A DNA stretch of 64,000 bases, taken from Herbaspirillum sp. AP02 (lineage in GTDB: Bacteria; Pseudomonadota; Gammaproteobacteria; Burkholderiales; Burkholderiaceae_D). The notes beneath the pieces were generated by a model, which saw only the letters and a list, made by a program, of their open reading frames with translations, searched no databases and was not told where the DNA came from. Positions within the stretch are counted from its first letter, which is position 1, and every line of letters starts with the position of its first letter. The translations under genes were made by a program, and so were the position numbers. The stretch covers positions 1-64,000 of the forward strand of contig NZ_JADWMY010000014.1 in NCBI RefSeq assembly GCF_015767275.1, in the 5' to 3' direction. Below are positions 2,827 through 37,555 of this stretch, piece after piece.

Positions 2827-2963
2827 ACCACCTAGGCCTCTGCAAAACTTCTCGCGCTGCTATGGGATTCTCCTCCAATCCCTTATCAGACTATAGGCAA
2901 TGCAGGACGTTTATGCCCAATAAATTCCCCGTTATAATTGCGCTGATCGCAATCGGAATGGGT

Positions 2964-3083
2964 TGTCTCAGACTATATGAAGCTACGAATCTTGCGGCGG
3001 CCATATTGGCCCATTTGTCTCAGACTTTAACTTGTGAATTGGAGTGGGAAATGTCGGAAATACCGACATATTTGTCTCAGACT
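2964..3083. repeat. Three TGTCTCAGACT direct repeats
   Basis: The 11-mer TGTCTCAGACT is present exactly at 2964, 3016 and 3073 (spacing 52 and 57 bp). The last two share a longer match starting TTTGTCTCAGACTTTAA. Direct repeats beginning with TGT and pointing inwards are typical of transposase-binding sites at the left end of Tn7-like transposons. Between the second and third copies lies a palindrome of TGTCGG/CCGACA at 3052-3068. The repeats sit between the long tniQ and the phosphatase gene. Confidence 0.5.
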
Positions 3084-3112
3084 TTAATATTGCGGAACAA
3101 GTTTGTTGCAAC

Positions 3113-3153
3113 GGAATGAAAGCTTTTCTCGGCAACGTTAAAAGCTTTTCTCG
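3113..3153. repeat. Two AAAGCTTTTCTCG repeats, candidate left transposon end
   Basis: AAAGCTTTTCTCG occurs at 3119 and 3141. The first copy reads GGAATGAAAGCTTTTCTC, and an inverted near-copy (GAGAAAAGCTTTTATTCC) is found at 32013-32030 on the far side of the defence cargo. The remainder of the interval 2827-3287 contains no gene I can support. Confidence 0.35.
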
Positions 3154-4751: not shown

Positions 4752-6152
4752 ATGAACAACAACGTCCCAGCTCTCGATACTCCGAGCGCACACGCAACGG
4801 AGGCCAGCGAATCTCGCGATTCGAAGAACCATAACGTGCCCACTACTTCTCGCTTCATCCAAGCGGAGGAGATGGCGTTCTTCAGAGTACCGCTTTTGGC
4901 CACTGAGCTGCCGGCGTTGCTGACCCATCGCGCCATACCTGCTGCCATCACTTCGGAGCTACTGAGTGCGTCGCTGGAAGAGCGTATCGATGCGATTGTG
5001 AAAAACTACGCCGTTGCGTATCGCCCCGTTGAAGAAGAAATTGATTTCGTACAGATACTGACGGCCAACATGCGTCTCAGCATGTCAGAGCGCGACTTCA
5101 GCAACCCGATATTCAAGCAGCATTGGTATAACCACGAGTACATAAAAAAAGGCGGTCACCTCAACCCGATACCAAATTGCGTTCAAGGCATGGGACGCAG
5201 CATGATTTTGCTTGGCCCCTCTCAGAATGGCACATCATCACTACTGAAGAGAATCAAAGCTTTGGCTGGCGAGACAATTCGGATACCTGGCGGGAAGTAT
5301 GAACCGCCCATCGTGCACGTCGTTCCTCTTCTTATTCTCAACTATCCAGCATGCGGAACCGTTCGAGGCTTGTTGACTGAGATGCGCGAAAAGCTTCGGC
5401 TTGAGATTGCGAGTGCAGATAGTTCTCATCGAGCACTAGAGCAATTATCTGTATCTGATATCAACGTCGCCACGAACGCTGCGATTGGTTTCTGCATCCG
5501 CGCAATGGTCGGCGCTATTGTCATTGACGGCGCTTCATCGAAGTTCATCAATAAAGGAACAGGAGCAATACTCTCTTTCCTCGCTCGACTGAAGCAAGCC
5601 ACTGGTATTCCGCTCGTATTGGCTGGAACCTGCGCCTTCATGCACATCACCGGCTTGGACGGCAGCACCAGTTCTAATCTTTTGGATGGAGACACTACAT
5701 TTCTTCCTCCATTTGAAAAGCCTAAGCTGGATGCGAATAAGCGCATCGTGACCGGCGGATTGTGGTACCAGGCCAATGACTGGCATTGGTCATTGGGCGT
5801 GCTTCCGAAATCAGTGTCCATGCCACCCATGTTGCCATTCTGGACCCACGTCCATGCGCAGGGGCGGCGTGGCTGGCTGAAGGCAGGTTTCAAGAAACTA
5901 CACCTTCATCTAGCGAGAAATCCAGATGTGGCAATAAACGGCTTGGTGACGAAGGAACTGGTGAAAGACTTGTTTGACAAGGCCTTGCTGCTACAAAAAA
6001 CTGCACGCGACGCTGTCTTCCATTCGTCAACGAAAATGGGGGTAACGGAAGTGGACTTCGTCAGCCACATGGACCACTTCTTGCCGTCATTCTTTCATCT
6101 GCCCAAATACAAAGCGCTCATGCCGTCGTTGACACGAAGGGCCATCCAGTGA
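4752..6152 (+). CDS. tnsC: TnsC-like AAA+ transposition regulator with degenerate Walker motifs
   Basis: This 466-residue protein lies at the head of the tns operon. Its architecture matches TnsC/TniB: a variable N-terminus, P-loop region near 155-163, Walker B near 256-260 and a sensor-like IPLVLAGTCAF at 286-297. TnsC forms an ATP-dependent filament linking the target selector to the TnsAB transposase. Here the P-loop reads GPSQNGTSS, with Thr161 where the catalytic lysine should be, and Walker B reads IVIDG with glycine instead of the acidic residue. The reading frame is open and the downstream genes overlap neatly, so this is not an obvious frameshift ruin. Its stop overlaps the GTG start of tniQ by four bases (GTGA), which implies translational coupling. 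Identification rests on the motifs and operon position. Confidence 0.75.
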   Translation: MNNNVPALDTPSAHATEASESRDSKNHNVPTTSRFIQAEEMAFFRVPLLATELPALLTHRAIPAAITSELLSASLEERIDAIVKNYAVAYRPVEEEIDFVQILTANMRLSMSERDFSNPIFKQHWYNHEYIKKGGHLNPIPNCVQGMGRSMILLGPSQNGTSSLLKRIKALAGETIRIPGGKYEPPIVHVVPLLILNYPACGTVRGLLTEMREKLRLEIASADSSHRALEQLSVSDINVATNAAIGFCIRAMVGAIVIDGASSKFINKGTGAILSFLARLKQATGIPLVLAGTCAFMHITGLDGSTSSNLLDGDTTFLPPFEKPKLDANKRIVTGGLWYQANDWHWSLGVLPKSVSMPPMLPFWTHVHAQGRRGWLKAGFKKLHLHLARNPDVAINGLVTKELVKDLFDKALLLQKTARDAVFHSSTKMGVTEVDFVSHMDHFLPSFFHLPKYKALMPSLTRRAIQ

Positions 6153-7678
6153 GTATCCATCCAGACATTCACGTTGTACTTGGCTTGCCGGACGGCGAGA
6201 TTATTCCTGCATTTATCTGGCGGACGATGAACTATGGCGCGCACTATTCTCTGGATAACGCGTACAAGTCTCTCCTCAAGCAGAAGCGCGGACCGGACGG
6301 GATGCCTAGCGGCCTTAATACGTTCCAAGCAATCATCGGCCATATGTACAAGTCGATGGATGCCTGGATTCACGAGCATACGGAATACAACTTCTTCTGC
6401 TGCGGTCTTCCTCTTCCTAAGTTTGCAGAGCAATACAAGCGCTTGCAATTTAAATGCATGGGCCCCGTGAGGCTGTGCCGCTTACAGCCAATTTTTGGCG
6501 TCCTCGAAGGACGCTATCGAAAATGCCCTGAATGCGAAAAGCAACAATTGATTGACGAAGGATTTTCGTTTATCCACAGGCGGATGGGAGCTCCATTTGT
6601 CCAGTATTGCTCCAAACATCGCCTCTTGCTGACGGCAATCAATTCGCAGTTACTGCTCTTTGACAGTCGCTGCGAACGGGCGGCTACTCCAACGCAGATT
6701 GACCATGATGTTGAGCTAGGTAGACGTATATATCACTGTATTTGCATCACTGCGGAGCAGTCTGGATATCACAAGAGCCATGTCGTCGAGCTGCTTAGCG
6801 CGGCTGGCTGGTTTACCGAAACCGGCCGAATGCATCTAGCTGAGTTCATACAGCGCTTCTGCAACAGATTCCGTGGAGCGTTTGCGGACGCGCGCCTTGA
6901 CTACCTCGTGCAGTCAGAGAAGTACATAAATGACGCAATTCGTTCACTCCTCCGTGCAGACCGGGGCATTCACCCTATCTGGTGCATATTGTTTGCATGG
7001 TTCACAGAGACCGAGCAACGGACTATTTCCACCTCGCAAAAGAAGATGGACCGAGTCACAGCGTCCCCATCACGGGCAGAGATTGCTGCGCAGATGGAAC
7101 AGCACCGCACGTTGACCGCCACATCGAAGGCCATGGACATAGACATGGCCAAGCTGACTGGTCTATGCAAAAGCTACCAAATCCCATTTAGTGCTCGGCC
7201 AAAAAAATACGACGATGCGCTAGTGGCATCCATCAATGAGGCCTATGACAAAGGTCTCCGGCCGTTCGAGGTAGTTATTAAATTCCGAATTAGCCAGACG
7301 ATGGCGTATCGCATTCTTCGTTGGCGCTCCGATGGCCTCAATCCTGAGAGCAAAGTAATAGCCCTGAGGACTGAGGATGCGAAATCCCAATGGCTGGCCG
7401 CGCTAGATAAACACCCCAGTATCACCTACACAGCTCTTCGCAAGTTAAAAACAGGGGTGTGGATGCAACTCTATCGCAAGGCTCCAGAATGGCTCAGCTG
7501 TCATCGACCGCAGAAAAGCATATCTGCTCGAAACGCTCGTCGCGAACCACCAAAAGAAATCTTGGCTCTCTTTAAGTCGGCAATTAAAGACGCCGCATCA
7601 GCATGTGGGGGGCGTGGAAAAAAGCCGGTACACAAGTCGCTTTATCGCATACGAGAACTCACTGGTACCCATGTATGA
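6149..7678 (+). CDS. tniQ: TniQ/TnsD-family target-selection protein (operon-encoded)
   Basis: This 509-residue protein has the TniQ zinc motif CPEC (Cys126, Cys129) and CSKH (Cys154, His157). A helix-turn-helix-like tract (MDIDMAKLTGLCKSYQIPF) and a C-terminal VWMQLYRKAPEWL segment resemble the DNA-binding region of TnsD. It probably directs insertion by bridging target DNA to the TnsC-like protein encoded just before it. It starts with GTG overlapping the tnsC stop and ends overlapping the tnsA start. It shares the zinc layout with the long TniQ at 1027-2826 but differs in length and sequence, so the element may carry two alternative target pathways, as TnsD/TnsE or TniQ1/TniQ2 do in other Tn7-like elements. 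Confidence 0.8.
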   Translation: MSIHPDIHVVLGLPDGEIIPAFIWRTMNYGAHYSLDNAYKSLLKQKRGPDGMPSGLNTFQAIIGHMYKSMDAWIHEHTEYNFFCCGLPLPKFAEQYKRLQFKCMGPVRLCRLQPIFGVLEGRYRKCPECEKQQLIDEGFSFIHRRMGAPFVQYCSKHRLLLTAINSQLLLFDSRCERAATPTQIDHDVELGRRIYHCICITAEQSGYHKSHVVELLSAAGWFTETGRMHLAEFIQRFCNRFRGAFADARLDYLVQSEKYINDAIRSLLRADRGIHPIWCILFAWFTETEQRTISTSQKKMDRVTASPSRAEIAAQMEQHRTLTATSKAMDIDMAKLTGLCKSYQIPFSARPKKYDDALVASINEAYDKGLRPFEVVIKFRISQTMAYRILRWRSDGLNPESKVIALRTEDAKSQWLAALDKHPSITYTALRKLKTGVWMQLYRKAPEWLSCHRPQKSISARNARREPPKEILALFKSAIKDAASACGGRGKKPVHKSLYRIRELTGTHV

Positions 7679-8465
7679 CCCGCGTGGATACCCCAGTGTT
7701 GTCAACACGTCTGAATTTAAGTCATGGAATAAGGCGACGGAGAGCGTGTTCGGTATTCCAGGGAATAGCTTCAGTTTGAAGAGTGGCGGCTTCCTGGTCC
7801 CATGCCAGTCTTCACTTGAACGCAGATTCCTTCGCTTCGCAAATATGGAACCGAGCATAGTGGAGATTCGTGGGCAATACCCAATTTGGGACCGGGCTAC
7901 TTATGCAAAAGATAAAGAGCTCAATTTGAATATGCTTGGCTCCGCCATCAAAGCAATCGACTTCTGCGTCACTCTGAAGAAACACTGTTCGGAGGAACTT
8001 CAATATATGGGCGTCTCATGCAAATACGAAAGCGACCTGGATACCCTTAAGGCGACTAGGCGTCACGAAGAAGAAATTCGCTTACTGAGAATTCCAAACT
8101 TCAAGCACATCATCTTCACGGAGAAATCCGTCAGCAGGCTACAGGACGATAACAATCTGAGACTGCAATCATATATGCACAAGGTGGAGAAGATTGAGCC
8201 CGTATATGTGGCAGCAGCACGTGAGCTGGCTCGACGCCTGCACGCCACTAAGGCGACAGGTTCACTCGACAGAGTGCTTGGCATCATCTGTACAAAGATG
8301 GATTTGAATCGCGATACCACGGGCTACAGACTTTTCTCTCTCGCACATTACTTGGGATTTTTACGTTGGGACCACCGTTTCCCACTAGACCCAATTTTGG
8401 AAATGAAGCTTGAGGACCCAGATATAGTTTTACGCAGAAAAAATAGCACTAGCAAGGAGCGGTGA
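7671..8465 (+). CDS. tnsA: TnsA-like endonuclease subunit of transposase
   Basis: TnsA is a restriction-enzyme-like nuclease that cuts the 5' ends of the transposon, allowing cut-and-paste movement. From ATG 7671 this 264-residue protein shows the expected acidic/lysine triad: Glu50 (SSLERRF), Asp97 (KAIDFCV) and Lys118 (GVSCKYE), with QYPIW at the place of the family's Q-P strand. A winged-helix-like C-terminus follows (SLDRVLGIICTKM). A GTG at 7605 would add 22 residues, but the 7671 start overlaps the tniQ stop in the way the other junctions do. The stop overlaps the tnsB ATG (TGATG). Presence of TnsA separates this element from replicative Tn5053-type elements. Confidence 0.8.
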   Translation: MYDPRGYPSVVNTSEFKSWNKATESVFGIPGNSFSLKSGGFLVPCQSSLERRFLRFANMEPSIVEIRGQYPIWDRATYAKDKELNLNMLGSAIKAIDFCVTLKKHCSEELQYMGVSCKYESDLDTLKATRRHEEEIRLLRIPNFKHIIFTEKSVSRLQDDNNLRLQSYMHKVEKIEPVYVAAARELARRLHATKATGSLDRVLGIICTKMDLNRDTTGYRLFSLAHYLGFLRWDHRFPLDPILEMKLEDPDIVLRRKNSTSKER

Positions 8466-10747
8466 TGGAATACGTACCAGACCCAAACTTCAAGATTCCT
8501 CTGAACCGAGCATGGATTTGGTCCCTAAGTACGAGCGAACGAGAGCCAACCAAATACTATCGGGTGCTTGCCGAAGACAAGCGCTGGGTTCATGTTATCG
8601 AAATTGGCGAGTTTGTCGATGGCAATTACAAAATGCACCCCGCTCCTACAGACAAGAAGTTGCGCCGCGTTTGGCCTGCCGTGGATGCCTTACGCTGGGG
8701 CCGCACGGGTAAACTGAAAAGTAGAGACGTCGATACTTGGGCAATCCCGGAGGGGCTGAAAAATCCCAAGCCCAGAACTGAAAAGCTTGAATATTATTTC
8801 AGGCTAAAAAAGGTACTCGTCAAAAAACTTAAGCGGAAATTCGGCGAAGGGCTAGTGACCTGTAAAAAGACATTCTCTGACGCAGTTTCTTGGGCCACAT
8901 CCAAGGTTCCGCTCAGCCGTCCCACGGTCCGCTCCGCCATTGAAGCGGACCTCTTTTATGGGAATCACAAGAACGCCCAAGTTAACCAAGACTGGGTGAA
9001 AGGTGCAAAGGGTGTCGAGCGTCGTGGAAGGAGGCGAGCGGATGGAACCCTCATTTCGTCCGGTCGCAGAACTGACGCTCAGCGGATTAATCCGAAGACA
9101 AAGGTTCCGAGAAAGCCCGTTTCTAAGCGATTTCTGACGCTCTTACGAGCAGAGATAGTGAAACGCCTCAAGGGCGGCGAAGAATCAGCGGCTGTCATCT
9201 ATCGAGAATTTGTAGATAACTTTGTAGGCATTAATGGAAAAACAGACGCAGACAAATTCCCCGTACATCCGAAGCATTTGCCTAACGAAGACTATGGACT
9301 TGAACTAGCGCGCAAGATTGTCCGTGAAGAAAAGAACATTCTCCACCGCAAGCTTGACTATGTCCCACTAGACACAAGGGCACCCACAGGTGGTAGCGCT
9401 CGAGATATCGTTTACCAAGAGCTTTCGGTGTATGACATTGATGGCACCATAGCGGACAACTTCTTGCTCTATAAGGGTGAGAAGATTTCTATTGATGGAA
9501 TTGGGCGGCCAACGGTATTGCTCGCGGTTGACCGTGCCAGCGCCGCTATTGTCGGCTGGTACGTTACGTTCGGGTTCGAAGATAGCGATTCATATCTTTC
9601 GTGTGTCTTCAGCTCATATATGCCAAAAGACAAAGAACTGGAACGATGGGGAGTCCCTAATCTAAAAGGCATGGTATTTGGCTGCGCAAGTGCAATCTTC
9701 ATCGACCGCGGTCCAGGCGTATCCCTGAAAGTCCAGAAAGCAATCGTCGAACGCTTGAAAGCATGTACTCTAATTGCGGCTCCAAGAAATGCCAAGGGTA
9801 AAGGCCACGCAGAACAAGCCATGGGCTGGTTCCAGAAAGCACTATCCAAACTCCCTGGTTCTATCCATGGAACCGGAAATCCAGCAAAGGATAGGCAGCG
9901 ACGCAAGAATATCAAGAAGGGAGATGCTGTCTCTTTGGAAGAGTTCATGGCGGCCTTACTCACAGCTATTAGTGAGAGGAACTTGCGCCCCGTCTCAAGA
10001 AGGAGGCTAAGCATACCCATGCTTCTCCGACGAGTTCCACCGACTCCCTATCATATCTTCGAATTTAATAAAGCGAACCGCAAGGGAGATTTCAGCTGGG
10101 ATTGGCCAGAAGAGACCATCTACAAAAAGCTATGTGAGCCACACACGCGCGCAGTTCAGTCCGGAGGAATTGTTCGAGTCAACAGCATTTCCTATAGGAG
10201 CGATGTTCTGGAGCTTGATGCGGCGGACTATGCGCGGGAGCATCGCGGCAGGAAGTTAAAGGTCACCGCGCATTCCATCCCGAACGCACCCTTTGAACTT
10301 TGGTGGGAACGCACGCCGGGGACTGCAATTAGCCTGTATGCGACAGAGCACGTTAAGGTCGACTACGACGACCGTGCAGACTTTCTCAATAACTACCTGA
10401 ATAAGTTAGAAAAGGCATCTAAGTCTCTTTATAAGTACAACCAGGCAGTATCGCGCTACAAGACGAACAAGCTTGGGCGCTTGTCGGAAGCCAAGCAAGA
10501 GACTATCGACGAAACTGAAGAACGCTCCTCTTCTGCCGCCAGCGCTCCAGAACCACAAGGAGAGGTCGAATCGAGTGCCGCCCGCAGAATGATGAAAAAA
10601 GATAAGCAGAAAAGTGACCATGCAGCTGTAAAGAAACAACTCGGTATGCCCCCCTCTCCTCCGGACGAGCCAACTTCACATGAAGCCACGGTGTCCATTG
10701 AGAGTTCTATTCTGAATGACGCACAGGTTCTCTATAAGGACTATTGA
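8465..10747 (+). CDS. tnsB: TnsB-like DDE transposase
   Basis: This 760-residue integrase-fold (RNase H-like) transposase cuts and joins the 3' transposon ends. The catalytic core lies at about residues 320-500: first aspartate in YDIDGTIADNF, second in IFIDRGPG, and glutamate in GHAEQAMGWFQ. N-terminal HTH regions, needed to bind the repeated end sequences, precede it (about residues 100-240), and a basic C-terminal barrel and tail follow. The C-terminal tail is charged and low-complexity (EETEERSSSAASAPEPQGE), typical of the TnsC-interacting tail. The ATG at 8465 overlaps the tnsA stop. It is the last gene of the tns operon, and the 208 bp after it contain an inverted repeat and no gene. 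Confidence 0.85.
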   Translation: MEYVPDPNFKIPLNRAWIWSLSTSEREPTKYYRVLAEDKRWVHVIEIGEFVDGNYKMHPAPTDKKLRRVWPAVDALRWGRTGKLKSRDVDTWAIPEGLKNPKPRTEKLEYYFRLKKVLVKKLKRKFGEGLVTCKKTFSDAVSWATSKVPLSRPTVRSAIEADLFYGNHKNAQVNQDWVKGAKGVERRGRRRADGTLISSGRRTDAQRINPKTKVPRKPVSKRFLTLLRAEIVKRLKGGEESAAVIYREFVDNFVGINGKTDADKFPVHPKHLPNEDYGLELARKIVREEKNILHRKLDYVPLDTRAPTGGSARDIVYQELSVYDIDGTIADNFLLYKGEKISIDGIGRPTVLLAVDRASAAIVGWYVTFGFEDSDSYLSCVFSSYMPKDKELERWGVPNLKGMVFGCASAIFIDRGPGVSLKVQKAIVERLKACTLIAAPRNAKGKGHAEQAMGWFQKALSKLPGSIHGTGNPAKDRQRRKNIKKGDAVSLEEFMAALLTAISERNLRPVSRRRLSIPMLLRRVPPTPYHIFEFNKANRKGDFSWDWPEETIYKKLCEPHTRAVQSGGIVRVNSISYRSDVLELDAADYAREHRGRKLKVTAHSIPNAPFELWWERTPGTAISLYATEHVKVDYDDRADFLNNYLNKLEKASKSLYKYNQAVSRYKTNKLGRLSEAKQETIDETEERSSSAASAPEPQGEVESSAARRMMKKDKQKSDHAAVKKQLGMPPSPPDEPTSHEATVSIESSILNDAQVLYKDY

Positions 10748-10955: not shown

Positions 10956-11522
10956 CTAAGTAACCCCCAGTTCCTTCTTAAAGTCGATGGTTGGCTCTCT
11001 TGAGCCAAGGTCGAAACCGAATTCCAAGGGGTTGCCCCAAATCTGTTCAAGTGCAGAAAGTCCCGTTTGGATTATTTCTCTAAATTCGGTTCTGTAATCA
11101 GGCAAGTTGAACGGATTCGGGTAGTCCTCTCCGTTTCGATGCGCAATAAACTGATTTCGGTATTTCGTCTTAAAACCGTTTATTTGGGCCCTGTACTTTT
11201 TCAGAATGTCTGAACAATCTCTTGCGCGTTCAGCGAATTGCTTCGTCTTTCCCAAATCCTTAGTCATCGCTCGCATGGACCATGCACTACTGTCATCGTC
11301 CAGATTACAGATATGCAGAATCATCCCATTAGACAAATGACGTAACGCCGTAGCCTCCTCGAGTAGGAATTCTCGTGACTCGCTCTTCAAGCGTTCGCTT
11401 AGGTGCTCAACCTTTCTTTTGTAGCAGTAGGCAGAAAGAAGCAACTGGTACATCTCATCTTTTACGGGAGAAAATTTTCGTTTCAGTTGTTCATCCATAC
11501 TTTGACGTCTAAACGAGTTCAA
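10956..11522 (-). CDS. HEPN/AbiU2-like protein
   Basis: This all-helical protein of about 188 residues carries the motif RNQFIAHRNGED near residue 141. That is an R(x5)H motif with asparagine after the arginine, as in HEPN-fold RNases of the AbiU2 type. Such proteins often act as toxins or abortive-infection RNases. No obvious nucleotidyltransferase antitoxin partner lies beside it, so it may act alone. Start uncertain: MDEQLKRKF at 11498 is an alternative. It lies convergent to tnsB at the beginning of the cargo region. Confidence 0.6.
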   Translation of the reverse strand: MNSFRRQSMDEQLKRKFSPVKDEMYQLLLSAYCYKRKVEHLSERLKSESREFLLEEATALRHLSNGMILHICNLDDDSSAWSMRAMTKDLGKTKQFAERARDCSDILKKYRAQINGFKTKYRNQFIAHRNGEDYPNPFNLPDYRTEFREIIQTGLSALEQIWGNPLEFGFDLGSREPTIDFKKELGVT

Positions 11523-12602: not shown

Positions 12603-15600
12603 ATGGCCAGCGATGTGAGAAGTGACAATCAGGGGGCACCAGCTTCAAATGCCGGCGACCGATTTCATGAGCTATGGGCGCTTAGGAAGGCACTCTCCCT
12701 GGTCAGCCCTGAACCACAATACCAGGCGATGACTGTAGAAGGTGTTCCGTTCGCAGACGCTATCGCAAAAGACGGAAGCTGGGATGCGGTGGACGTCTGC
12801 CTTCTGAGCGGAGGTGAAACCTTGACGGAAGCAGTTTCCGTCGTATTTTCTCAGTTGAAGTATTCCACCACAGCGCCAAACGACAACTGGACCGTTTCCA
12901 GACTATGCAAAAACGACTCCAAAAAAGGAAATAACTCTCCATTTCGAAAGCTGGCGGATTCATTCAGAGCGGCTGAAAAGGCCAAAAAAGACGGCAATAC
13001 CAGTCTGCAATACAAAATTCAATTGGTAAGCAACCAGCCAATTAGTAAAGAGGTGCTGCTACTGTGCGGGAAAACTCCTCCCGCAGACTCTGTAGACGCC
13101 GCCGATACGGAAACAGAATCCGAAACGGAAGCGCAGAAAAAGCAAACGCTCCGGACAGCCACGGGCTTAACGAAAGCCGAATTTGCGAAGTTTTGTGAGC
13201 TCCTCGATTTCTCCGAATGTGGCTCTGCGCCTCTATTGGTGCAAGAAACCCAAGCCATTTTTGCCCTTGAGAAGCTCATTGCCGGCAATAGCGAATTTCC
13301 ATACCTCAAGCTGCTGCACTACATCAGCAACGAGATGATGCCGGAGCGCTCAAGAAATCCCATCACCGAAACAACAATCTTGTCACGGTTGGGTATCTCA
13401 TCCAAAGATGCAATTTATCCATGCCCTGCACGCATCACAGACACAACGTCTGCGGTTCAGCGTCAATCGGTGAAAGATACTGCACAAAAGCTTGCCGCTG
13501 GCACACAGTACCTTCTCGTGCATGGCGGCGCGGGGTGCGGAAAGACCACAACAGTGAGCCTGTTGGGAAGGTACCTTCCCTCTGGAAGTATCAGTATCGT
13601 CTACGACTGTTATGGTGGCGGCAGCTATCTCGATGCTAGCAATCCAAGGCATCGCCCCCAGGAGGCATTCACTCAGCTATCGAATGAAATTGCATCGCGA
13701 ATCGGTGTGCCTCGCCTCTTGCGAGTGCTCGAAGAAGAAAATGCGATTAAGGCATTCCGTCAACGTCTTGTCGATGCTGCCGACATCCTTCATAAAAGTA
13801 ACCCGGCAGCATTTCTGATGATTGTCGTTGATGCGGCCGACAACGCTGTCGCTGCAGCCAAGCGAAATGGCGAGCAGTGTTTCGTACACAGTTTCGTTAC
13901 GCTGCAAGATTTACCAAACAACGTCCGAATCGTCGTCAGCGCTCGCACCGCAAGACGAGACCAATTGAAGTTGCCGCCAGACTTCGTTCAATCAGAAATA
14001 TTGCCGTTCTCCCAACCCGAGACCAAAGAATATCTACGATTAAAAGGTATCAACGAAGAAGAAGCCTGGATAGATGAATTTCATAGGCTTACCGGCGGCG
14101 TTCCACGTATTCTCTCCTACGCCATTGAACTTCCAGGGGGACCGGCCTCGGCAATAAGCTATCTGCTACCGGAAGGAAAAAACCTCAGCCAGATTTTCGA
14201 GCTCACGGTAAGAAAAGCTTGGGAGCAAGGGGGGGGTGACGCTAACTCAATATCAGCGATGTGCGCAGCACTGATTGCACTTCCACGCCCTGTTCCCATG
14301 GAAGAGTTGGCCTACGCCATAGAGCTTTCTATAGGGCTGACGCAAGACTTATGCGCCGACTTGTCACCCACCCTGCGTGTAGATTCACAGCTTGTTTCGT
14401 TTGCCGACGAAGACTTTGAAGATTACGTAATCGCTCGTGGAGAAGAGAAACTATCCCAGGTTCGGACCAGGATAGCTACCAGGATGTTGGCCAACGCAGA
14501 GACCGACCCATATGCAGCGCGGCATGTAGTTTCTCTGCTTATTGACGCTCGCATGGAGAACGAAGCGCTCCAGGAGGCAATGAAAGAACCAAGCGACGTA
14601 CTCTTCCCTGACCCAGTCGTGCGTCGTCTATGCCAATTGGAACGCATGCATAGTTCATTGCGATTATGCAGTCGGACAGGCAATGGTAGTGAGGCCCTCT
14701 CTATCTTACTGATAGGAGCGGAAGGACTTCGCACCAGTGAGGCAATTACCAGCATGTTGACCAAGAATTTGCTACTCGCGACCAGATTTTCCAGAAGCGC
14801 AGTAGAAAAGCTTGTTCTGTGGGACCCAAAAAATTTCTCTTCCCAGGGGCCTGCCTTATGTCACTACATGGCAGAAGACGCACGAACCGGACAGATTTCT
14901 CGTGTCACAGCATCTAGGAAAGCATTCTCTGCATGGCAAGATGATATGCGCGAGGGCCGCAACCACGGAGACACGTCGAATCAACTAACAGTTGCCGATG
15001 TAGCTGCGTATTGCTACGCGCAATTGAAAACTGGCGGCAATAGTGCGCTAGACAAAGTTCTCACAAAGCTCAAAGATAACCGCCACAAGGTATTCATCGC
15101 ACTTGTTGACCATCTTCTCGACGAGCGCGCGCCCTCTCTACTGACCGAACTGCTTTCCCTCAACACCATCCGCATCGAGGAGAGGGTATGCGTCATTTCT
15201 CGCCTACTTAGACTTGGGAATGAAACCGACGTTAACACTGTTAGGTCACTTCTCCTGAACCTATCCTCAACGGGGCTACTTAGCATCCCCAAGGCAGAGG
15301 TAAGCTCCGAGTCAGGGGAGCTACAAAGTGACGCACTAGAGCTTTGTGAATATTTACTTCATCTTGGTTCATCAACGAACGACCTTTCGTCGCTGTTGAA
15401 GGCATGGGCCGAGTCATCTTCCCGGCAAGAGGAAAGTCAGAGCTATTACCAACGCCCTCACCCGCTCTCATTGAGGCTCGCGTGTCTATTAGCTGCGCTC
15501 CAAGGCAAAGAAATAAAGGCCCACGAGTTTCTTGGGCTCGAATCGCCGCCGGCGAGTCATTGGACAAATGAATCCAAAATATCCAAGGAAGAGCATTCAC

Positions 15601-18600
15601 GCCAAGCGGAGTCACATAGCTATTATTCAGCCGTAATTCCCTTCTATATTTCTCGGGCGAAGTTCATTGCCACTGGAAATCTTGACGACTTTCTTGGCGA
15701 AGGAAGCTCTAGTTGGCAACAGAAATTGCGCTCCTATGTTCAAAACGAACGCAAACCTGAACTACGCGGAATCGCTGTAGATGTCGTTCGCGCGGCAGCT
15801 TCAACGGCTGCAATATCGGAGGACAAGGCGGCTCATGTATTCGACCATGTTCGAGCACTCTTAGACTCCAAACTCTACCCATTTTCAGCCGAAAATATCT
15901 GTTCCATACTTCAGCCCTTCACTTGGAAGACGCCAAGCCACGGGCCATTAACTGCATACGCAAACGGTTGGCTAGAGAAAATCAACGCCGAGAGGAATTC
16001 GTCTTCTTCCAAGGCTAGTTCTTACCTAGCGTTTGCGCAATTGCTAATGACAGTTTCGCCTCAAACGTCGGCATCTTTCTTTTCCAAAGCCTTTGTGGTG
16101 CTAGAGGAGATTGACTACCACGAGATGTTTTTGCTCAGCATTTTTGACAGACTAAGCAGCGTCGTCGAAAACACTATCACCGATGTAGAAGCTCGCTCTG
16201 CAGCATATGCGCTCGCCTCCTTTGGCTCCGACGTTGCAGTAAAGTTGGAGGGATACGACCACTTCCCCTGGGAAAAACTGTCTCGCGCGATTGCACGGTT
16301 AAACGTGCCCATAGGTTTTGCACTTGCATCGCGATGGGAAGACGAAGGTCGGGGCATTGACACGGAGACCCTTCAGGTGATGCTTAGCGAAGGCATCCGA
16401 AATTCTAAAATTCCGGCGACCTATGCGACAGCTGCGAGATACCTCTCTGAAATGGCCAACGATGATTTAGTTTCGGCAGTTGTCGCTGCGGCTCGAGAGG
16501 AAGAACCGGGGAATCAGGTCTTAATCCGCGAAATGTTGGCCGAATGCGAGGCGCAATTAATTACATCGGCCCCGCAACTTAAACGAGATGAAGCTCTGAT
16601 AGCGATGTCGCCGACGGCGCCCCTGCAGCGCTGGACTCGCTACATCAAAGAGCGAGCAGAGTTTCTTTGCCACTTGCCTGACCCACTTCACGAAGACTCT
16701 TCCACAAGCGAATATGGTCGCGATAGGGAACGTCAACGACAAGACTTTATTGAAAGTCTGAGCTGGGGCACCTATGTTTTCGACTCTGCCAAAGCAATAC
16801 TAAACTTCGTCAACGAAGCAACTGCAAAAAGTCGCGAAAAACAAATCTCTTTCTACTTCGACACGGAGATATATCTACGGATTCGAGGTCTAGTCGCGGC
16901 TAATCATCAAACGGAATTTCTGGATTATCTTGCGCAGGAAATTCTGGAATCTGACTCAAACCTCATTTTCGCTGAAATACTCGCTAACTCGGTAACCGAA
17001 TGGCTAGGGTCGTCACCAATAGTTCAAGACTGGTGCCTCTCTAACATTCCGAATATTCTGTCCAAGAAACTGGCCATATTCGCGATAAGAATTTCAGGAA
17101 ACACGCCCGTAGAAAAGCTAATTGATAGCGCGTGCGTGACAGACGAGAAATTTTACAAAGCACTTTTGGCGGGCCTCGCTGAAATCGAAAACCTCGACGC
17201 CCGACTTGCGTACGAGCTTATTCAAACAATCGCGAGAGTCATTCCACCAAACGAGGTTAACACTTCACTCAATAGCTATCTAGCACGTCTTCTTGCTAGA
17301 ACGGAACCAAGCGACAGGCTCGAGTTAGACGACCTTCCCAAGGAAGTTCCAGATGCCTTCGCACGGCTGCTATATGCCAATCTTGGCGATGCTTTCTTGG
17401 CAGCGCGCTGGCGGGCAGCCCACGCAGTACGTGCATTGTTTGCACTGGAATGTGCGGACGTCGTTGACCAGCTCGTGGTTCGCTATGCGCAACATGACGA
17501 GGTGTCATTCCGAATTAAAGGCGCCGCCTTCTATTGGTCCGCCGCACGACTTTGGTTGCTTATCGCCATCTCCCGCGCTTGCGACGACAATCCTGCGTTT
17601 GCAGCTCGCTATAAAGACTTTCTTTTGTCGGTTCTGGCCGATGAAAATTACCCCCACCTGCTTGTGCGCAGATTCGCTCAAAAGGGACTTGAACGACTCT
17701 CCGCTGCAAGCGTTATCGAGCTCTCAGCGGCCCAATCCCTGAAGGTTCGTAACTCGTTTAAGTCTCCCTTTAAGAAGCAAAAGCGTAGCAAAAGGTCTGC
17801 ACGTAGCGATATTAGAGAAAATGCCGGCGCTAAAGAACGGCATTTCCACTTTAACTCAATGGATACCATCAAAAACTGGTATGCCCCCCGCGCCGACCTC
17901 TTTGCCGACGTATCGACTGCTGAATTTACAGACGAAGCAGAAAAATGGATTGTCGAGAAATGGGGAATCATCAATGCTCCATGGCAGTGGCTCGATGAGC
18001 CGCGACGGCACAAGCTTGAACGACACGGGGGCCGTACCTACCATAGCCAAGGAGTGATTCCCTCTGCTGAGCGGTATTCAACACACCTTGAGTGGCACGC
18101 TATGTGGTGCGCTGTTGGGTCTTTAATGTCCACGCATCCACTAAACAAGGGGGATTGGGAAGAGGACCCACTTGAGGAGGAGCTCCTTAGCTCAACCGTT
18201 ACCTGCACGCCAAATGTATGGCTTTCCGACTTGCGCTGCCCAAAGCCGCTTGAAGCGCGATTTTGGACATATCCAAAGCTTGATACGCCATGGCTACGAG
18301 GACCCACGTCTAGCGAAGTGCTCTCGATACTAGGCTTGAACAAAGAGACCGGGTGGATTTTGGCGAGCGGCAGCTATTATTGCTATTGGAAGACGTACGA
18401 AGAACGCATCGAAGTCTCCTCATGCCTGGTGAGCACAGATACATCCCGAGCGCTTCTTCGCGCCCTACAGACCTCAAATGATAGCCATGCTCACTATCTT
18501 CCAACCGGGGAAGGAAGAGATATTGACGAACCACCGTTCATCCTAGAGAGCTGGCTCGCAACGTCCAAAGGACACGAGGGGCTGGATGAATATGATAATG

Positions 18601-19043
18601 TCGGCGAACCCCTTTCTGCCCGGGCATCTCGCCCCAACGAAGCTGTCGTGAAACTTTTGGGCTTATCGCCCAGCCCCCTTTACGCTGCTGGCTGGCAGGT
18701 ATCGTTATCCGCAGAATTGGCGTTCTACTCTGAAAAATGGACAGAGAAAATTCCAGAGCAAAGGGCGTACAGAACCTGGGATTGGACGCGCTCTGTTGGA
18801 GAACGCTTGCACTGCAAGCGCAATATCCTTGATACGGTGCTCAACACTTCACAGCGCAATCTTCTCGTAAAAATCAACACTCACAGGAAGCAAGATGAAG
18901 ACCGATTCGAGAAAAGGGATGAAGAAAGCCAGTATTTCGACAACTATCTCCTCCTCACGCACGACGGAGTTATCGAATCTATTGAAGGACCCATTGGAAC
19001 TTGGAAAGCTATTGGTTCGGGAAACAATGGTGGACAACTATGA
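12603..19043 (+). CDS. Giant Avs-like STAND NTPase with N-terminal Cap4-type nuclease
   Basis: This 2146-residue protein is the largest in the window. Residues 1-150 resemble the Cap4 dsDNA endonuclease family (PD-(D/E)xK fold): GDRFHELWALRKAL, then Glu in VEGV, Asp in AVDV and SQLKYS as the QxK element. Residues about 290-620 form a STAND NTPase with P-loop GGAGCGKTT near 306-314 and Walker B FLMIVVDAADN near 400. The remaining 1,500 residues are helical repeats, the usual sensor region. In antiviral STAND (Avs) proteins a phage protein binds that region and the oligomer activates the nuclease. Neighbours at 19027 and 19742 appear co-transcribed. The start ATG follows AAGAGAAGAAGAT. Avs membership is inferred from architecture; the exact class is not established here. 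Confidence 0.75.
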   Translation: MASDVRSDNQGAPASNAGDRFHELWALRKALSLVSPEPQYQAMTVEGVPFADAIAKDGSWDAVDVCLLSGGETLTEAVSVVFSQLKYSTTAPNDNWTVSRLCKNDSKKGNNSPFRKLADSFRAAEKAKKDGNTSLQYKIQLVSNQPISKEVLLLCGKTPPADSVDAADTETESETEAQKKQTLRTATGLTKAEFAKFCELLDFSECGSAPLLVQETQAIFALEKLIAGNSEFPYLKLLHYISNEMMPERSRNPITETTILSRLGISSKDAIYPCPARITDTTSAVQRQSVKDTAQKLAAGTQYLLVHGGAGCGKTTTVSLLGRYLPSGSISIVYDCYGGGSYLDASNPRHRPQEAFTQLSNEIASRIGVPRLLRVLEEENAIKAFRQRLVDAADILHKSNPAAFLMIVVDAADNAVAAAKRNGEQCFVHSFVTLQDLPNNVRIVVSARTARRDQLKLPPDFVQSEILPFSQPETKEYLRLKGINEEEAWIDEFHRLTGGVPRILSYAIELPGGPASAISYLLPEGKNLSQIFELTVRKAWEQGGGDANSISAMCAALIALPRPVPMEELAYAIELSIGLTQDLCADLSPTLRVDSQLVSFADEDFEDYVIARGEEKLSQVRTRIATRMLANAETDPYAARHVVSLLIDARMENEALQEAMKEPSDVLFPDPVVRRLCQLERMHSSLRLCSRTGNGSEALSILLIGAEGLRTSEAITSMLTKNLLLATRFSRSAVEKLVLWDPKNFSSQGPALCHYMAEDARTGQISRVTASRKAFSAWQDDMREGRNHGDTSNQLTVADVAAYCYAQLKTGGNSALDKVLTKLKDNRHKVFIALVDHLLDERAPSLLTELLSLNTIRIEERVCVISRLLRLGNETDVNTVRSLLLNLSSTGLLSIPKAEVSSESGELQSDALELCEYLLHLGSSTNDLSSLLKAWAESSSRQEESQSYYQRPHPLSLRLACLLAALQGKEIKAHEFLGLESPPASHWTNESKISKEEHSRQAESHSYYSAVIPFYISRAKFIATGNLDDFLGEGSSSWQQKLRSYVQNERKPELRGIAVDVVRAAASTAAISEDKAAHVFDHVRALLDSKLYPFSAENICSILQPFTWKTPSHGPLTAYANGWLEKINAERNSSSSKASSYLAFAQLLMTVSPQTSASFFSKAFVVLEEIDYHEMFLLSIFDRLSSVVENTITDVEARSAAYALASFGSDVAVKLEGYDHFPWEKLSRAIARLNVPIGFALASRWEDEGRGIDTETLQVMLSEGIRNSKIPATYATAARYLSEMANDDLVSAVVAAAREEEPGNQVLIREMLAECEAQLITSAPQLKRDEALIAMSPTAPLQRWTRYIKERAEFLCHLPDPLHEDSSTSEYGRDRERQRQDFIESLSWGTYVFDSAKAILNFVNEATAKSREKQISFYFDTEIYLRIRGLVAANHQTEFLDYLAQEILESDSNLIFAEILANSVTEWLGSSPIVQDWCLSNIPNILSKKLAIFAIRISGNTPVEKLIDSACVTDEKFYKALLAGLAEIENLDARLAYELIQTIARVIPPNEVNTSLNSYLARLLARTEPSDRLELDDLPKEVPDAFARLLYANLGDAFLAARWRAAHAVRALFALECADVVDQLVVRYAQHDEVSFRIKGAAFYWSAARLWLLIAISRACDDNPAFAARYKDFLLSVLADENYPHLLVRRFAQKGLERLSAASVIELSAAQSLKVRNSFKSPFKKQKRSKRSARSDIRENAGAKERHFHFNSMDTIKNWYAPRADLFADVSTAEFTDEAEKWIVEKWGIINAPWQWLDEPRRHKLERHGGRTYHSQGVIPSAERYSTHLEWHAMWCAVGSLMSTHPLNKGDWEEDPLEEELLSSTVTCTPNVWLSDLRCPKPLEARFWTYPKLDTPWLRGPTSSEVLSILGLNKETGWILASGSYYCYWKTYEERIEVSSCLVSTDTSRALLRALQTSNDSHAHYLPTGEGRDIDEPPFILESWLATSKGHEGLDEYDNVGEPLSARASRPNEAVVKLLGLSPSPLYAAGWQVSLSAELAFYSEKWTEKIPEQRAYRTWDWTRSVGERLHCKRNILDTVLNTSQRNLLVKINTHRKQDEDRFEKRDEESQYFDNYLLLTHDGVIESIEGPIGTWKAIGSGNNGGQL

Positions 19044-19656
19044 GAACACGCTCGCTGTCTGGATGGCTCATTACTTGGCAGAACTCATAGCCAAAGCCGA
19101 ACTCGAGGGCGATTCACATGTTGGTCAGCTGGCCAGGAGCGAAGCGTGCTCGCTGGTTTTCAAATTATGGGCAAATCGTGCTGAGCTCTCTGGCCGAGCC
19201 AATCCAATGGCTAAACTCGAAGACGCAGTAAATCAGCTCAGTGCTATGGACGCTGATGGGAACTTTTTGCGAGGAAGGCAGAAGGGAACACATTCTCCCC
19301 TGGCAGAATTTCAGGAATCAGCGAGCAAGCTCTTTGCTTCGATGTTTTTACTCACCCTCCCCTCGAAGATAGCAACCGGAGATATCGCCGAACAGAACCT
19401 CAATTCGGTAGAGCAGAAGCTAATCCAAAAGCTCGACGCTGAACGGCACCTTCGATTTATCATCCGATTCACTTCTGACGAAAAAATTGACCCGAAGGAA
19501 GAAAGGAAGAAGGAACTACGCGAAGAAATCGCCCGTGTGCGTGAGGCGCTAGTGAAACTTGAGGGAGAAGTCGACGCGATGGTAGAGGCATTTAACGACG
19601 ACGATGACGTCCAGCATCAAACGGCCATCGTGAGAGTTTTGCGCGATGCGGTTTAA
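19027..19656 (+). CDS. Unknown helper protein of the Avs-like operon
   Basis: This 209-residue helical protein starts at ATG 19027 (MVDNYENTLAVW), inside the last 17 bases of the giant STAND gene, so translation is probably coupled. No family is recognised. The C-terminal third is strongly charged (EERKKELREEIARVREALVKLE) and predicts a coiled coil, suggesting a partner protein. Longer in-frame starts overlap the upstream gene further and are less likely. It lies between a STAND nuclease and a DUF2513 gene and is presumably an accessory component or regulator of that putative defence system. Confidence 0.6.
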   Translation: MVDNYENTLAVWMAHYLAELIAKAELEGDSHVGQLARSEACSLVFKLWANRAELSGRANPMAKLEDAVNQLSAMDADGNFLRGRQKGTHSPLAEFQESASKLFASMFLLTLPSKIATGDIAEQNLNSVEQKLIQKLDAERHLRFIIRFTSDEKIDPKEERKKELREEIARVREALVKLEGEVDAMVEAFNDDDDVQHQTAIVRVLRDAV

Positions 19657-19741
19657 GCAGACATGTAGCGTTACCATTCGAGAAATGCAACGGAGCAGCC
19701 GGCCTGCACCTCCCCCCTCAAAACGTGGCCAGGAGCAACTC

Positions 19742-20161
19742 ATGAAGAGAGACTGGGATTTAATCCGCCAGCAACTGACCGATATTGAAGAAGACCGCGA
19801 CATCTTCGCTGGTATTCCACAGTCCCCCCGATGGTTGGATGATGAAACTGAGGAGCAGTACAAAAAGAAGATTGGCGAATACTTCGACACATCGAATCGG
19901 ATATGCGGGCACGTAGAACTTTTGACCGAGGCCGGCTATGTCGAAGGCATCAAGATAATTCGGGACTCAACAGGGGAATGCCACTGGGCAGTTATGACGC
20001 CGAGGCTGACCATGGCCGGCCACGACCTGCTCGACACCATGCGCTCCAACACGGTATGGACTACAGTCAAGGATATGGCTAAGAAGAAAGGTATCGACCT
20101 CACGTTCGAGGTCATCAAGCAGCTAACTGGTGTAGCTCTAAAGCAGGTTCTGGGCGGCTGA
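19742..20161 (+). CDS. DUF2513 protein
   Basis: From ATG 19742, preceded by AGGAGC, this 139-residue protein has the DUF2513 hallmarks: MKRDWDLIRQQLTDIEE at the start, a central ICGHVELLTEAGYVEG winged-helix-like core, and the C-terminal LTMAGHDLLDTMRSNTVW. DUF2513 proteins are common in prophages and defence islands; their function is not known. An earlier in-frame start at 19646 would overlap the previous gene. The gene ends three bases before the convergent TraB-like gene. Confidence 0.75.
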   Translation: MKRDWDLIRQQLTDIEEDRDIFAGIPQSPRWLDDETEEQYKKKIGEYFDTSNRICGHVELLTEAGYVEGIKIIRDSTGECHWAVMTPRLTMAGHDLLDTMRSNTVWTTVKDMAKKKGIDLTFEVIKQLTGVALKQVLGG

Positions 20162-20164
20162 TTT

Positions 20165-20914
20165 TTAGGTCCGCCCTTTCTGCTCAATCAGCGACGTTGG
20201 TCGACCTATTTGCTGGAGCAGGTTGCCTTCTTCGCAAAGGTGCAAGCCACCAACGACAACCAGGGTCTTCCGCGAGGATTTGCAGAGCTCATTTACGCTG
20301 CTTGCCCAAGACGCATTGCGGCCGGTCAGCACTGCGTGAAGGAGGGATGGGATAGTTACGATGGCCTTCTTCTGAATGCGCCGGAACATCGTAGCGAGGT
20401 CGCGCTTAGCCCAATCAGCGTACAGCCCTTTGAAAGACTTGTCGTTCTCAGGGAAGTTTGCAATGGCTTCTCTTAGCGCGCGCTCGATGTCTACAGGCGG
20501 TATGGCCTTCATCATCGAGTCGAATTGTGTAGCCGTCTCCAGGAAGTGAAGCGGCTTCCCATCCCGCTCGGCGAAGGCCCGGATATGCAAGTCGAGACCG
20601 GCCTGCAGCTTCACACCAATTTGTGCGACCTGGGTGATGACGAACCAAGCCGGCTTACGCCCCAACTCACCATATGCAGGCGGCCAATGTGCCTCCAACC
20701 AAGTCCAGACATCGGCCGGCACCTGGTTATCGAGTGACTCCCCTTCGGGCAAGCTGAACAAATCACCGACATTGCTCCAATCAACCTCCAGGGCAATTTC
20801 CTCTGCCCAGTCGTACGCTTCAAGCGCCCACCGAGGCACCCCTGGCACATTCTCTGGGAAGAAGTGAATCGAGCCAAGCACGCGAACATTGGTGTTATCG
20901 ATTTGAAAGTACAT
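20165..20914 (-). CDS. TraB/GumN-family protein
   Basis: Start at ATG 20914 is supported by AGGAGG six bases upstream and gives 249 residues. It has the two hallmark GxxH motifs of the TraB/GumN (Tiki-like) fold: VLGSIHFFPE near the N-terminus and VVVGGLHLCEEGNLL near the C-terminus. Members are putative metalloproteases or regulators of unknown substrate. There is no clear signal peptide, unlike many GumN proteins, so a cytoplasmic role is likely. It is convergent with the Avs-like operon. Confidence 0.75.
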   Translation of the reverse strand: MYFQIDNTNVRVLGSIHFFPENVPGVPRWALEAYDWAEEIALEVDWSNVGDLFSLPEGESLDNQVPADVWTWLEAHWPPAYGELGRKPAWFVITQVAQIGVKLQAGLDLHIRAFAERDGKPLHFLETATQFDSMMKAIPPVDIERALREAIANFPENDKSFKGLYADWAKRDLATMFRRIQKKAIVTIPSLLHAVLTGRNASWASSVNELCKSSRKTLVVVGGLHLCEEGNLLQQIGRPTSLIEQKGRT

Positions 20915-25079: not shown

Positions 25080-25958
25080 CTAGTCTTTAAAGGTGTAGCC
25101 GCAGGCCTTCATTTCCTTACGAACTTCCTGTTTCCAAGCGCCAGGGCCATCCATTTGGACGTACACAACTCCGCTGATGTCGTTCGGTACTTCAATATCA
25201 CCCTTTACCAGCGGGCAGACATTTTTTCGACCGAGCTTGGCCATTAAATAGCCGTGCTCAAACACGACATTCTGACGGGCACGCTGACGGGGATGCATAT
25301 TTGATTCATGAAAACCCCGACCTTGGTCACAAGGCGTGTAGAGAACAAGTGCGAAATCCGCATCACTGGTGTAGTGCTCAATCTTCTCGATAATTGTCAT
25401 TCCAGAGCTCGCCTGCTCATGCAGAATGATTGGCTCAAGACCCAAGTCGGAAACATAGCGTGCCACTTCCTGCTTAGCCTCATTGTCACGGCCGTGCACT
25501 ATGAATACCTTGCGTTTATTACGTGCGTTCGCAGGTGTTTCAGCACTCTCACCAAAAAATGATGCGCTTGTCGGCCCAGATGCCGGCGTTGAAATCAACG
25601 GCTGCTGTTCCGCGGCCGCTGGCGGCCAAGAAGCGGTAGTCGCCGCACGAGCTGTGACCTTAGGCTGTTCGCCGAACTCTAAATAGTCCAGCAGCGGTGT
25701 GAATTCCCGAGCGATGAAGTCTCGACGCTCTTGGTAGGACTTGAATTTCGGCTGGATGAAATGCCAGAAAGAAACCAAATCACGATTGACGCGGACAAAT
25801 GCCGGCACGTGGGCCTGAGCATCCGGCATCGACAACAAATCCTGTCTCAGAACACTATATTCGTTTCCATTAACCTTGCCGCCTGTCGCATGCGATGTGA
25901 GCAAATTCGAGAGGTAGTGAGCCCTTTCGAAAGGCGTACGGAGGAAGTCTAAGCTCAT
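25080..25958 (-). CDS. TIR-like domain protein (CAP12/Pycsar-type TIR)
   Basis: This 292-residue protein has at residues 149-292 the PF10137-type TIR-like domain: KVFIVHGRDNEAKQEVARY, then SSGMTIIEKIEHY with the putative catalytic glutamate, then the FALVLYTPCDQG and QNVVFEHGYLMAKLGR segments. Domains of this type degrade NAD+ or bind nucleotides in antiphage systems. Residues 1-110 are a helical unknown domain (FWHFIQPKFKSYQERRDFI), joined by a proline/alanine-rich linker. No cyclic-nucleotide synthase is adjacent, so activation may come through the N-terminal part. The ATG lies after a weak purine stretch. Confidence 0.75.
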   Translation of the reverse strand: MSLDFLRTPFERAHYLSNLLTSHATGGKVNGNEYSVLRQDLLSMPDAQAHVPAFVRVNRDLVSFWHFIQPKFKSYQERRDFIAREFTPLLDYLEFGEQPKVTARAATTASWPPAAAEQQPLISTPASGPTSASFFGESAETPANARNKRKVFIVHGRDNEAKQEVARYVSDLGLEPIILHEQASSGMTIIEKIEHYTSDADFALVLYTPCDQGRGFHESNMHPRQRARQNVVFEHGYLMAKLGRKNVCPLVKGDIEVPNDISGVVYVQMDGPGAWKQEVRKEMKACGYTFKD

Positions 25959-30646: not shown

Positions 30647-31795
30647 ATGACCGTAACGGACGATATCTTGAACGAGCTTCGATATCGGAGCGAAAGCGTA
30701 GACCTGGACTTCAAGCAAGCCCAATATAGATTTATTGGTGCCGGCGAACAGGAGAAATCGGAGCTTCTTAAGGATATCCTTGCCATCGCCAACTCTTGGA
30801 GGGAAGGCACTGGATACATCCTTATCGGTTTCAAGGACTGCACGCCAAACCCAGCCGACGTTACTGGCATCAGTACGGACGACCACATTGACGATGCCCA
30901 ACTGCAGCAATTCGTGAATGGGAAAGTCGAACCTCCCTTGCACTTTAAGTACGAAGAGAGAGTGTTCGAGGAAAAAATTGTCGCTATCATCTCCATCCCG
31001 AAGCAGCAGCGCCCGTTCTCTGTTTATGCAGGGTACGGCAAGGTCCGCTCCAACGTCGTGTATGTGCGCCGCGGAAGTGCTACCGTGGAAGCGTCGCCGG
31101 CCGAGATAATCAAGATGAGTCGCGCTGAAGGAAGACCCGCAGATAGCCAGATTTCGATTGAATTGCTCAATCACCAGAATGAATCATTGAGTCTGACGCA
31201 GAATCTACGATTCCTCCACTTCGATGAATTGCCGGAATTCTCTGTGCCATATACCGGTCGTGACATCACTTCGATTCTAGGGACCGACAGCACCACAAAC
31301 TTCAACTATTACCGCGACCTTGCGAGCTATGCAGCTTTGGTCCTCAGCAGCATCCAGCTTCGCTTCAAAATCCGCAACCAATCGAACGTTTCCCTGCGAG
31401 ACCTAAAGCTCGAACTCCACGTCACCACCCCAGATGTAAAGTACAAGTTCATCGAAAAGACTCGATTCCCTGACAGGCCATCCATGAAGAGAGAGCTTGG
31501 TCGACACTTCCGCACGCCACCGCCAGTTAACCCCCGTGCCTTCCACATAGAAAACCGAGGCAAGCACCAAGTATGCTTTGCGCGAGCCGAGAGCGTGCTG
31601 GCCGGTGAAGACTTCATTTCGGAGCCGGTATTGCTGCGCCTTCAGGCACAGTGTGAAGTGACGCTGGAGGTACGCATCTTGGCCGAACAGCTGCCCGCTC
31701 CAATCATCCAGACCTTTACGTTTACGGTCACAGGCGACCAAGAAAAACATGACACAGACACGCTACTCAAACTGGTCCAAAGAGGAGGCAGGTGA
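30647..31795 (+). CDS. AlbA_2 (Schlafen-type) domain protein
   Basis: In this 382-residue protein residues 1-150 match the AlbA_2 putative nucleic-acid-binding domain: SVDLDFKQAQY, then LLKDILAIANSWREGTGYILIGFKD, and VYVRRGSATVEASPAEI at the end of the domain. The C-terminal half is beta-rich and unrecognised (FSVPYTGRDITSI to the end). AlbA_2 proteins are frequent in defence islands and some Schlafen relatives are RNases, but no catalytic set is evident here. It stands alone between the Ntn-hydrolase and IS3 remnant. Confidence 0.65.
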   Translation: MTVTDDILNELRYRSESVDLDFKQAQYRFIGAGEQEKSELLKDILAIANSWREGTGYILIGFKDCTPNPADVTGISTDDHIDDAQLQQFVNGKVEPPLHFKYEERVFEEKIVAIISIPKQQRPFSVYAGYGKVRSNVVYVRRGSATVEASPAEIIKMSRAEGRPADSQISIELLNHQNESLSLTQNLRFLHFDELPEFSVPYTGRDITSILGTDSTTNFNYYRDLASYAALVLSSIQLRFKIRNQSNVSLRDLKLELHVTTPDVKYKFIEKTRFPDRPSMKRELGRHFRTPPPVNPRAFHIENRGKHQVCFARAESVLAGEDFISEPVLLRLQAQCEVTLEVRILAEQLPAPIIQTFTFTVTGDQEKHDTDTLLKLVQRGGR

Positions 31796-34568: not shown

Positions 34569-34595
34569 ATCGCGGTTTAATGGAGGAGGGGAAAA

Positions 34596-36676: not shown

Positions 36677-36687
36677 GGGTGCCCTAT

Positions 36688-37551: not shown

Positions 37552-37555
37552 GACC

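Follow-up and report, generated by a model that had tools for sequence, protein, structure and literature searches.

Known Avs systems and the locus

Avs1 to Avs4, as PMC12931631 describes them, bring about death by cutting the DNA of phage and host alike, and their triggers are the large terminase, portal proteins or Ksap1. For SeAvs3 PMC11291478 reports an N-terminus that is a Cap4-like PD-(D/E)xK nuclease, and a sensor that binds a viral protein, upon which the protein tetramerises, its nuclease domains come together and DNA cutting becomes active. The locus of this work lies in a 64,000-nucleotide stretch of DNA (henceforth the window), where a sequence-only reading had seen an Avs-like giant nuclease followed by two small genes, possibly regulatory or sensing partners of a distinct subtype. 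This tempting three-gene reading is corrected here to an Avs3 pair and a neighbour: the first two genes are, with high probability, a divergent Avs3 (AVAST type 3) anti-phage system, next to which the third, a DUF2513 gene, lies by chance. All three open reading frames are indeed present on the forward strand, at 12603-19043, 18895-19656 and 19646-20161. The features are as follows.

12603-19043, forward strand: avs3a homologue (gene 1), 2146 amino acids, frame open throughout
Residues about 12-220 of gene 1: putative Cap4-type nuclease region, with E46, D64 and Q84-x-K86
Residues about 287-640 of gene 1: putative STAND NTPase region, with G311, G313 and K314 (Walker A) and D410 and D413 (Walker B)
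Remainder of gene 1, after the STAND NTPase region: long C-terminal region
18895-19656, forward strand: avs3b homologue (gene 2), 253 amino acids, in a frame different from that of avs3a
18895-19043, forward strand: overlap of the avs3a and avs3b frames, 149 nt if avs3b starts at ATG 18895
19742-20161, forward strand: DUF2513 gene (gene 3), 139 amino acids from its likely start; the listed frame is 19646-20161, 171 amino acids
19672-20371, no strand given: block shared with another genome of the genus (blastn), i.e., leader, DUF2513 gene and 3′ end of a TraB-family gene

Gene 1 is a distant Avs3a

The PADLOC Avs3a model matches gene 1 from residue 12 to residue 2126 (hmmscan, E 6e-179, 595 bits, 2090 model positions), and no other model of that library matches it at E up to 1; the Avs4 model was confirmed to be in the library, which presumably contains Avs1 and Avs2 models as well. 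SeAvs3 (PDB 8dgc) is the sole significant PDB chain in a phmmer search (340 bits, the next chain at E 0.99). The match to NCBIfam NF041816 (Avs3a) is collinear over the full length, at 699.6 bits, and does not reach the curated cut-off of 2800. A Pfam search of the N-terminus found no nuclease family; this N-terminus can be aligned with that of SeAvs3. STAND/NACHT signatures occupy residues 287-479, as NACHT-like Pfam matches of which one is above its cut-off. The description of gene 1 as an Avs-like protein with a nuclease and a STAND domain is thus borne out.

The residues E46, D64 and Q84 are kept in all 79 aligned Avs3a proteins, the window's included, and K86 in 78 of them; G311, G313, K314, D410 and D413 are kept in all 79. 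This set joins 26 proteins of the window's branch (see below) with 53 of the other branch, the Avs3b-less L016, L017 and L116 being left out. Alignment with SeAvs3 and knowledge of the family suggest that the conserved positions are the putative catalytic residues of the nuclease and the Walker residues of the NTPase.

The locus resembles the described Avs3 (SeAvs3, NF041816/NF041817 and the PADLOC models) in protein length, in the order of regions, in the nuclease and Walker residues and in having Avs3b directly downstream, and differs from it by its place on a separate deep branch, by lower NF041816 scores and by branch-specific residues. Its Avs3 identity follows from the sole and full-length PADLOC match, from SeAvs3 being the only significant PDB match, from the kept residues and from the downstream Avs3b. 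Avs1, Avs2 and Avs4 are likewise nuclease-effector STAND sensors according to PMC12931631, but of the PADLOC models only Avs3a matches the window protein at E up to 1. That gene 1 might belong to one of these three families, or to a new one, and look like Avs3 only superficially, is what the low identity and the score far under the NCBI cut-off would favor; we consider it very improbable, given the absence of any second PADLOC match up to that E value, the collinear full-length match, and the Avs3b homologues found at the window and in 23 of its branch's 25 other members (in a sample built on the best 80 of 271 relatives). As both score below the NCBI cut-offs, genes 1 and 2 are filed as members of the wider Avs3 family, and not as equivalogs of NF041816 and NF041817. 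The closest surveyed relative of gene 1, again among the best 80 of 271, is 39% identical over 673 columns of the N-terminal part; since N-terminal identity is at most 39% and the scores are far below the NCBI cut-offs, target and activity may differ from those of SeAvs3.

Gene 2 is Avs3b and overlaps avs3a

Gene 2 had been put forward as a possible partner not usually described for Avs. By sequence comparison it is the known type 3 AVAST partner, Avs3b, since PADLOC and NCBIfam name it so and public plasmid annotations agree: it matches PADLOC Avs3b (hmmscan, E 2.3e-18, residues 33-126; a second match, to BilA at E 0.0016, is far weaker) and NCBIfam NF041817 (E 3.6e-17, 63 bits, under the curated cut-off of 200), and the corresponding adjacent genes on Janthinobacterium and Klebsiella plasmids carry the names avs3a and avs3b in two public records. 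These matches and annotations dispose of the idea of a new gene. Both Avs3b models cover the N-terminal half of gene 2 only.

The coiled-coil character ascribed to gene 2 agrees with its AlphaFold model (built with 65 relatives), which is predicted to be all-helical, with a long helix at residues 200-235 (mean pLDDT 74.7, best at residues 61-90). Foldseek found no significant PDB match for this model (best E 0.47), and an Avs3b profile found no related chain among PDB sequences (best E 0.11); hence an Avs3b chain seems to be absent from all solved structures, including that of SeAvs3. A literature search, whose scope lay outside the two primary Avs papers, found no work on Avs3b function, nor any mention of Avs3a, Avs3b, "AVAST type III" or "AVAST type 3", and the main text of the PADLOC paper mentions neither AVAST nor Avs.

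Two start codons are candidates for avs3b, namely ATG 18895, with AGGAAG just before it, and ATG 18919. As the Avs3b profile takes in variable N-terminal extensions, the overlap with avs3a was gauged on a glycine which is invariant in all 65 aligned homologues. In the window its codon lies 40 nt before the end of avs3a, so that the overlap exceeds 40 nt. The same codon is within avs3a in 39 of the 65 aligned loci, the window among them, and 5-26 nt past the end of avs3a in the other 26. The first possible Avs3b start codon overlaps avs3a in 81 of 81 loci (of a survey made up of the best 80 of 271 relatives and others), and so does the annotated avs3b start in each of the 7 public pairs that carry annotation. 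The overlap is therefore certain in the window and in some of the surveyed loci.

Avs3b follows nearly every surveyed Avs3a

Relatives of Avs3a were sought in a species-genome collection with two peptide patterns derived from an alignment of ten proteins, and the best 80 of 271 were kept, a sample which leans towards the window. Adding 11 loci from plasmids, a viral contig and the window, and removing one duplicate, brings these 80 genome loci to 92, of which 85 hold the 3′ end of avs3a. An Avs3b homologue lies directly 3′ of avs3a in 81 of these 85, within the limits of that best-80-of-271 sample and its plasmid, viral and window additions. Near-identical pairs of loci (L086/L087 and L097/L099) are counted separately; three of the 81 Avs3b genes (L042, L085 and L090) are short or broken, and that of L023 is cut off by the contig end. 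Copies of the window (L001, L005 and L006), a copy of L011 (L048) and pieces of the genomes G051 and G072 (L002-L004) were dropped before the 85 were counted, and L040, L061, L063, L077, L078, L089 and L093 have no 3′ end and are outside the count; in one of them, L061, Avs3a is truncated and a remnant of Avs3b is left. Because its translation contains stops, L125 is absent from alignment A4.

The four loci with no Avs3b are L011 (Tistrella), L016 (Agrobacterium), L017 (Cupriavidus) and L044 (Acuticoccus), and a six-frame profile search found no Avs3b remnant at any of them. Two further genomes, G072 with Avs3b and G051 without, bring the total to 82 of 87. L016, L017 and L116 (i.e., the locus of G051) form one branch of the Avs3a tree (SH-aLRT 100). 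Nearly all surveyed Avs3a genes thus have Avs3b directly behind them, even though nothing like it is found among solved chains, and the natural loci with it and the few without it make its role accessible to experiment.

Past the column of window residue 2122 there are 85 residues in L016 and 65 in L116, against a median of 12 and no more than 41 in all others. These C-terminal extensions of 65-85 residues, in two of the three members of the Avs3b-less branch, might stand in for Avs3b.

One surveyed pair, at 303-7245 of L103, comes from a contig that IMG/VR classes as viral; it is the sole one found by the scan of viral contigs, and is possibly an Avs3 carried by a phage or satellite. A single-query search of viral contigs found no Avs3b relatives.

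A second branch of Avs3

The unrooted tree of 82 Avs3a proteins (residues 14-720; from the sample built on the best 80 of 271 relatives) has a deep split with SH-aLRT 100, with 26 rows on the window's side and 56, including the NCBI-named proteins, on the other. The window itself is a long single branch. Under a mixture model, with 42 chosen rows and without the longest branch (L011), the window's branch keeps a support of 100. Judged by record titles, some of which are of metagenome bins, its members in the sample come from ten phyla: Pseudomonadota, Myxococcota, Chloroflexota, Actinomycetota, Thermodesulfobacteriota, Acidobacteriota, Gemmatimonadota, Bacteroidota, Planctomycetota and Bacillota. 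Position 87 is Y in 26 of 26 proteins of this branch and H in 53 of 53 of the other, and position 604 is D in the former and P in the latter, with the same counts.

With NF041816, four further proteins of the window's branch reach 654-768 bits, close company for the window's own score, versus 1650-3076 bits in four members of the other branch and 2747.9 in G072; three of those four (clade I) proteins and G072 are also below the 2800-bit cut-off. The five scored members of the second branch are far below the cut-off used for naming, yet keep the same plan; this points to a deep branch of Avs3 which is missed by the name-giving models. The tree places the window in a second, well-supported branch of Avs3 (the tree being unrooted), and it is the depth of this branch that appears to be new. 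A distinct subtype had been proposed on account of the extra genes; the deep split upholds the distinctness, but the extra genes are not its reason. The useful parts of this work are thus the survey of Avs3b and this poorly named second branch.

As to outgroups, NF041818 was tried and turned out to be Dsr1, and the Avs4 model yielded one fragment in 299 genomes.

How the pair might act is carried over from SeAvs3 on the strength of homology. By analogy, the C-terminal region of Avs3a would bind a conserved phage protein, possibly the large terminase. Oligomerisation, driven by the STAND domain together with ATP, would follow and pair the N-terminal Cap4-type nucleases, whose cutting of DNA would make the infection abortive. 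Avs3b would be a helical accessory, perhaps translationally coupled to Avs3a, as the overlap of the two reading frames may indicate.

A variant of this explanation, whose probability overlaps with that of the explanation itself, holds that Avs3 proteins of the second branch sense another packaging or conserved phage protein than the large terminase, with the same output. The deep split, the branch-specific residues (Y87 versus H, D604 versus P) and the differences in trigger between Avs families, reported in PMC12931631, speak for it, whilst the many positions past residue 700 that are common to both branches speak against it, and on balance we find it unlikely, if worth keeping in mind. It is a little more doubtful that the second branch could be a functionally distinct class of sensors with another phage trigger, where Avs3a could not do without Avs3b, as a safety or assembly partner, and would compensate for its loss by changes of its own, as perhaps in the branch of L016, L017 and L116. 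The reading kept here is that of a divergent Avs3 pair.

Gene 3 is a neighbour

Gene 3 does belong to DUF2513, as the sequence-only reading had it: it matches Pfam PF10711 at 68 bits and phrog_585 at E 3.4e-21. Its start is most likely ATG 19742 and not 19646. An AGGAG precedes this ATG, the phrog_585 model begins at its residue (number 33 of the listed frame) and the Pfam model one residue later, and two annotated plasmid homologues start at the equivalent position; in L007 and L022, however, the open frame continues upstream of it, which counts against this start. With a start at 19742, gene 3 would lie 85 nt past gene 2, and the 11-nt overlap of the listed frames is probably not real.

Among 84 further Avs3a loci in which the 3′ end is present (a sample built on the best 80 of 271 relatives), none has a DUF2513 gene beside it; in 79 of them the downstream DNA amounts to 1,200 nt or more. 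The profile search covered all open reading frames of at least 50 amino acids in 104 records, and found the gene beside Avs3 in the window only. Conversely, neither Avs3a nor Avs3b occurs around the other DUF2513 genes at any of 24 distinct places (mostly within about 5 kb a side), drawn from 27 records and comprising 19 viral contigs, of which near-identical ones are counted separately, three genomes of the same genus and two plasmids, the latter being two of the seven plasmid records with DUF2513. A Cupriavidus plasmid (NZ_CP068436) carries both DUF2513 and Avs3a, about 266 kb apart. Of 33 other genomes of the genus that were searched, none has Avs3 and three have DUF2513. One of these, G020, shares with window positions 19672-20371 a block of 700 nt at 79.9% DNA identity (blastn), which begins 16 nt past the avs3b stop and reaches into the TraB-family gene, and no Avs3 match was found in this genome or in its L113 stretch. 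Conservation of the small genes beside the Avs gene, whose absence the sequence-only reading had named as its refutation, hence holds for gene 2 and fails for gene 3 in the loci surveyed.

The AlphaFold model of gene 3 is confident (pLDDT 92.4). Its PDB matches, none with an E value as low as 0.04, comprise winged-helix proteins among others, with YjcQ (2hgc) at probability 0.94 and E 0.15; a sequence search found no solved relative up to E 1, and the literature searched yielded no mention of DUF2513. The predicted structure suggests that the protein is perhaps a winged-helix protein.

A three-gene Avs subtype, with the DUF2513 protein as its dedicated regulator or sensor, could appeal to the common strand, to the mere 85 nt between this gene and avs3b, and to those weak, non-significant winged-helix matches, which make a DNA-binding role conceivable. 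Yet Avs3a and DUF2513 are not neighbours at any other place surveyed, from whichever side the search is made, the block with its leader exists without Avs3 in the same genus, and relatives of the gene are found in phages, viral contigs and plasmids, so we give this subtype very little credence. The relatives of gene 3 in those phages, viral contigs and plasmids have no Avs3 nearby. The non-association marks DUF2513 as a separate phage-type gene, outside the Avs3 system, that probably became adjacent by recombination.

DUF2513 was seen next to or near a reverse transcriptase gene at two places: it directly follows one in L022 (4009-5363), and lies about 900 nt before one in L113 (9585-11552).

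A probable Tn7-like element

The surroundings of the pair contain the following features, from left to right.

1027-2826, reverse strand: TnsD gene, just outside the left end of the candidate element
2962-3087: direct repeats resembling the end of a Tn7-like element
3113-3132 and 32011-32030: 20-nt inverted pair, candidate element ends
4752-10747: transposition genes (Pfam: TnsD above cut-off, TniB below)
10956-11522, reverse strand: AbiU2-like HEPN protein, below the Pfam cut-off; likely defence cargo
25080-25958, reverse strand: CAP12/Pycsar-type TIR protein; likely defence cargo
30647-31795, forward strand: Schlafen/AlbA_2 protein (PADLOC PDC-S50); likely defence cargo
33228-39598, forward strand: genes for a metallophosphatase-GAAD, a double GTPase (DO-GTPase1) and GAP1-N1, right of the element

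The Avs3 pair probably forms part of the cargo of a roughly 29-kb Tn7-like element. Shuffling gives 0.02 expected occurrences of the inverted pair, a figure for a pattern derived from the pair itself. Pfam gave no match on 8462-10747, the product of which we read as TnsB-like. The gene set at 33228-39598 is one that we take to be a predicted GTPase-based conflict system. The G+C content of avs3a, 0.507 versus 0.588 at 40-64 kb of the window, is in keeping with acquisition from elsewhere.
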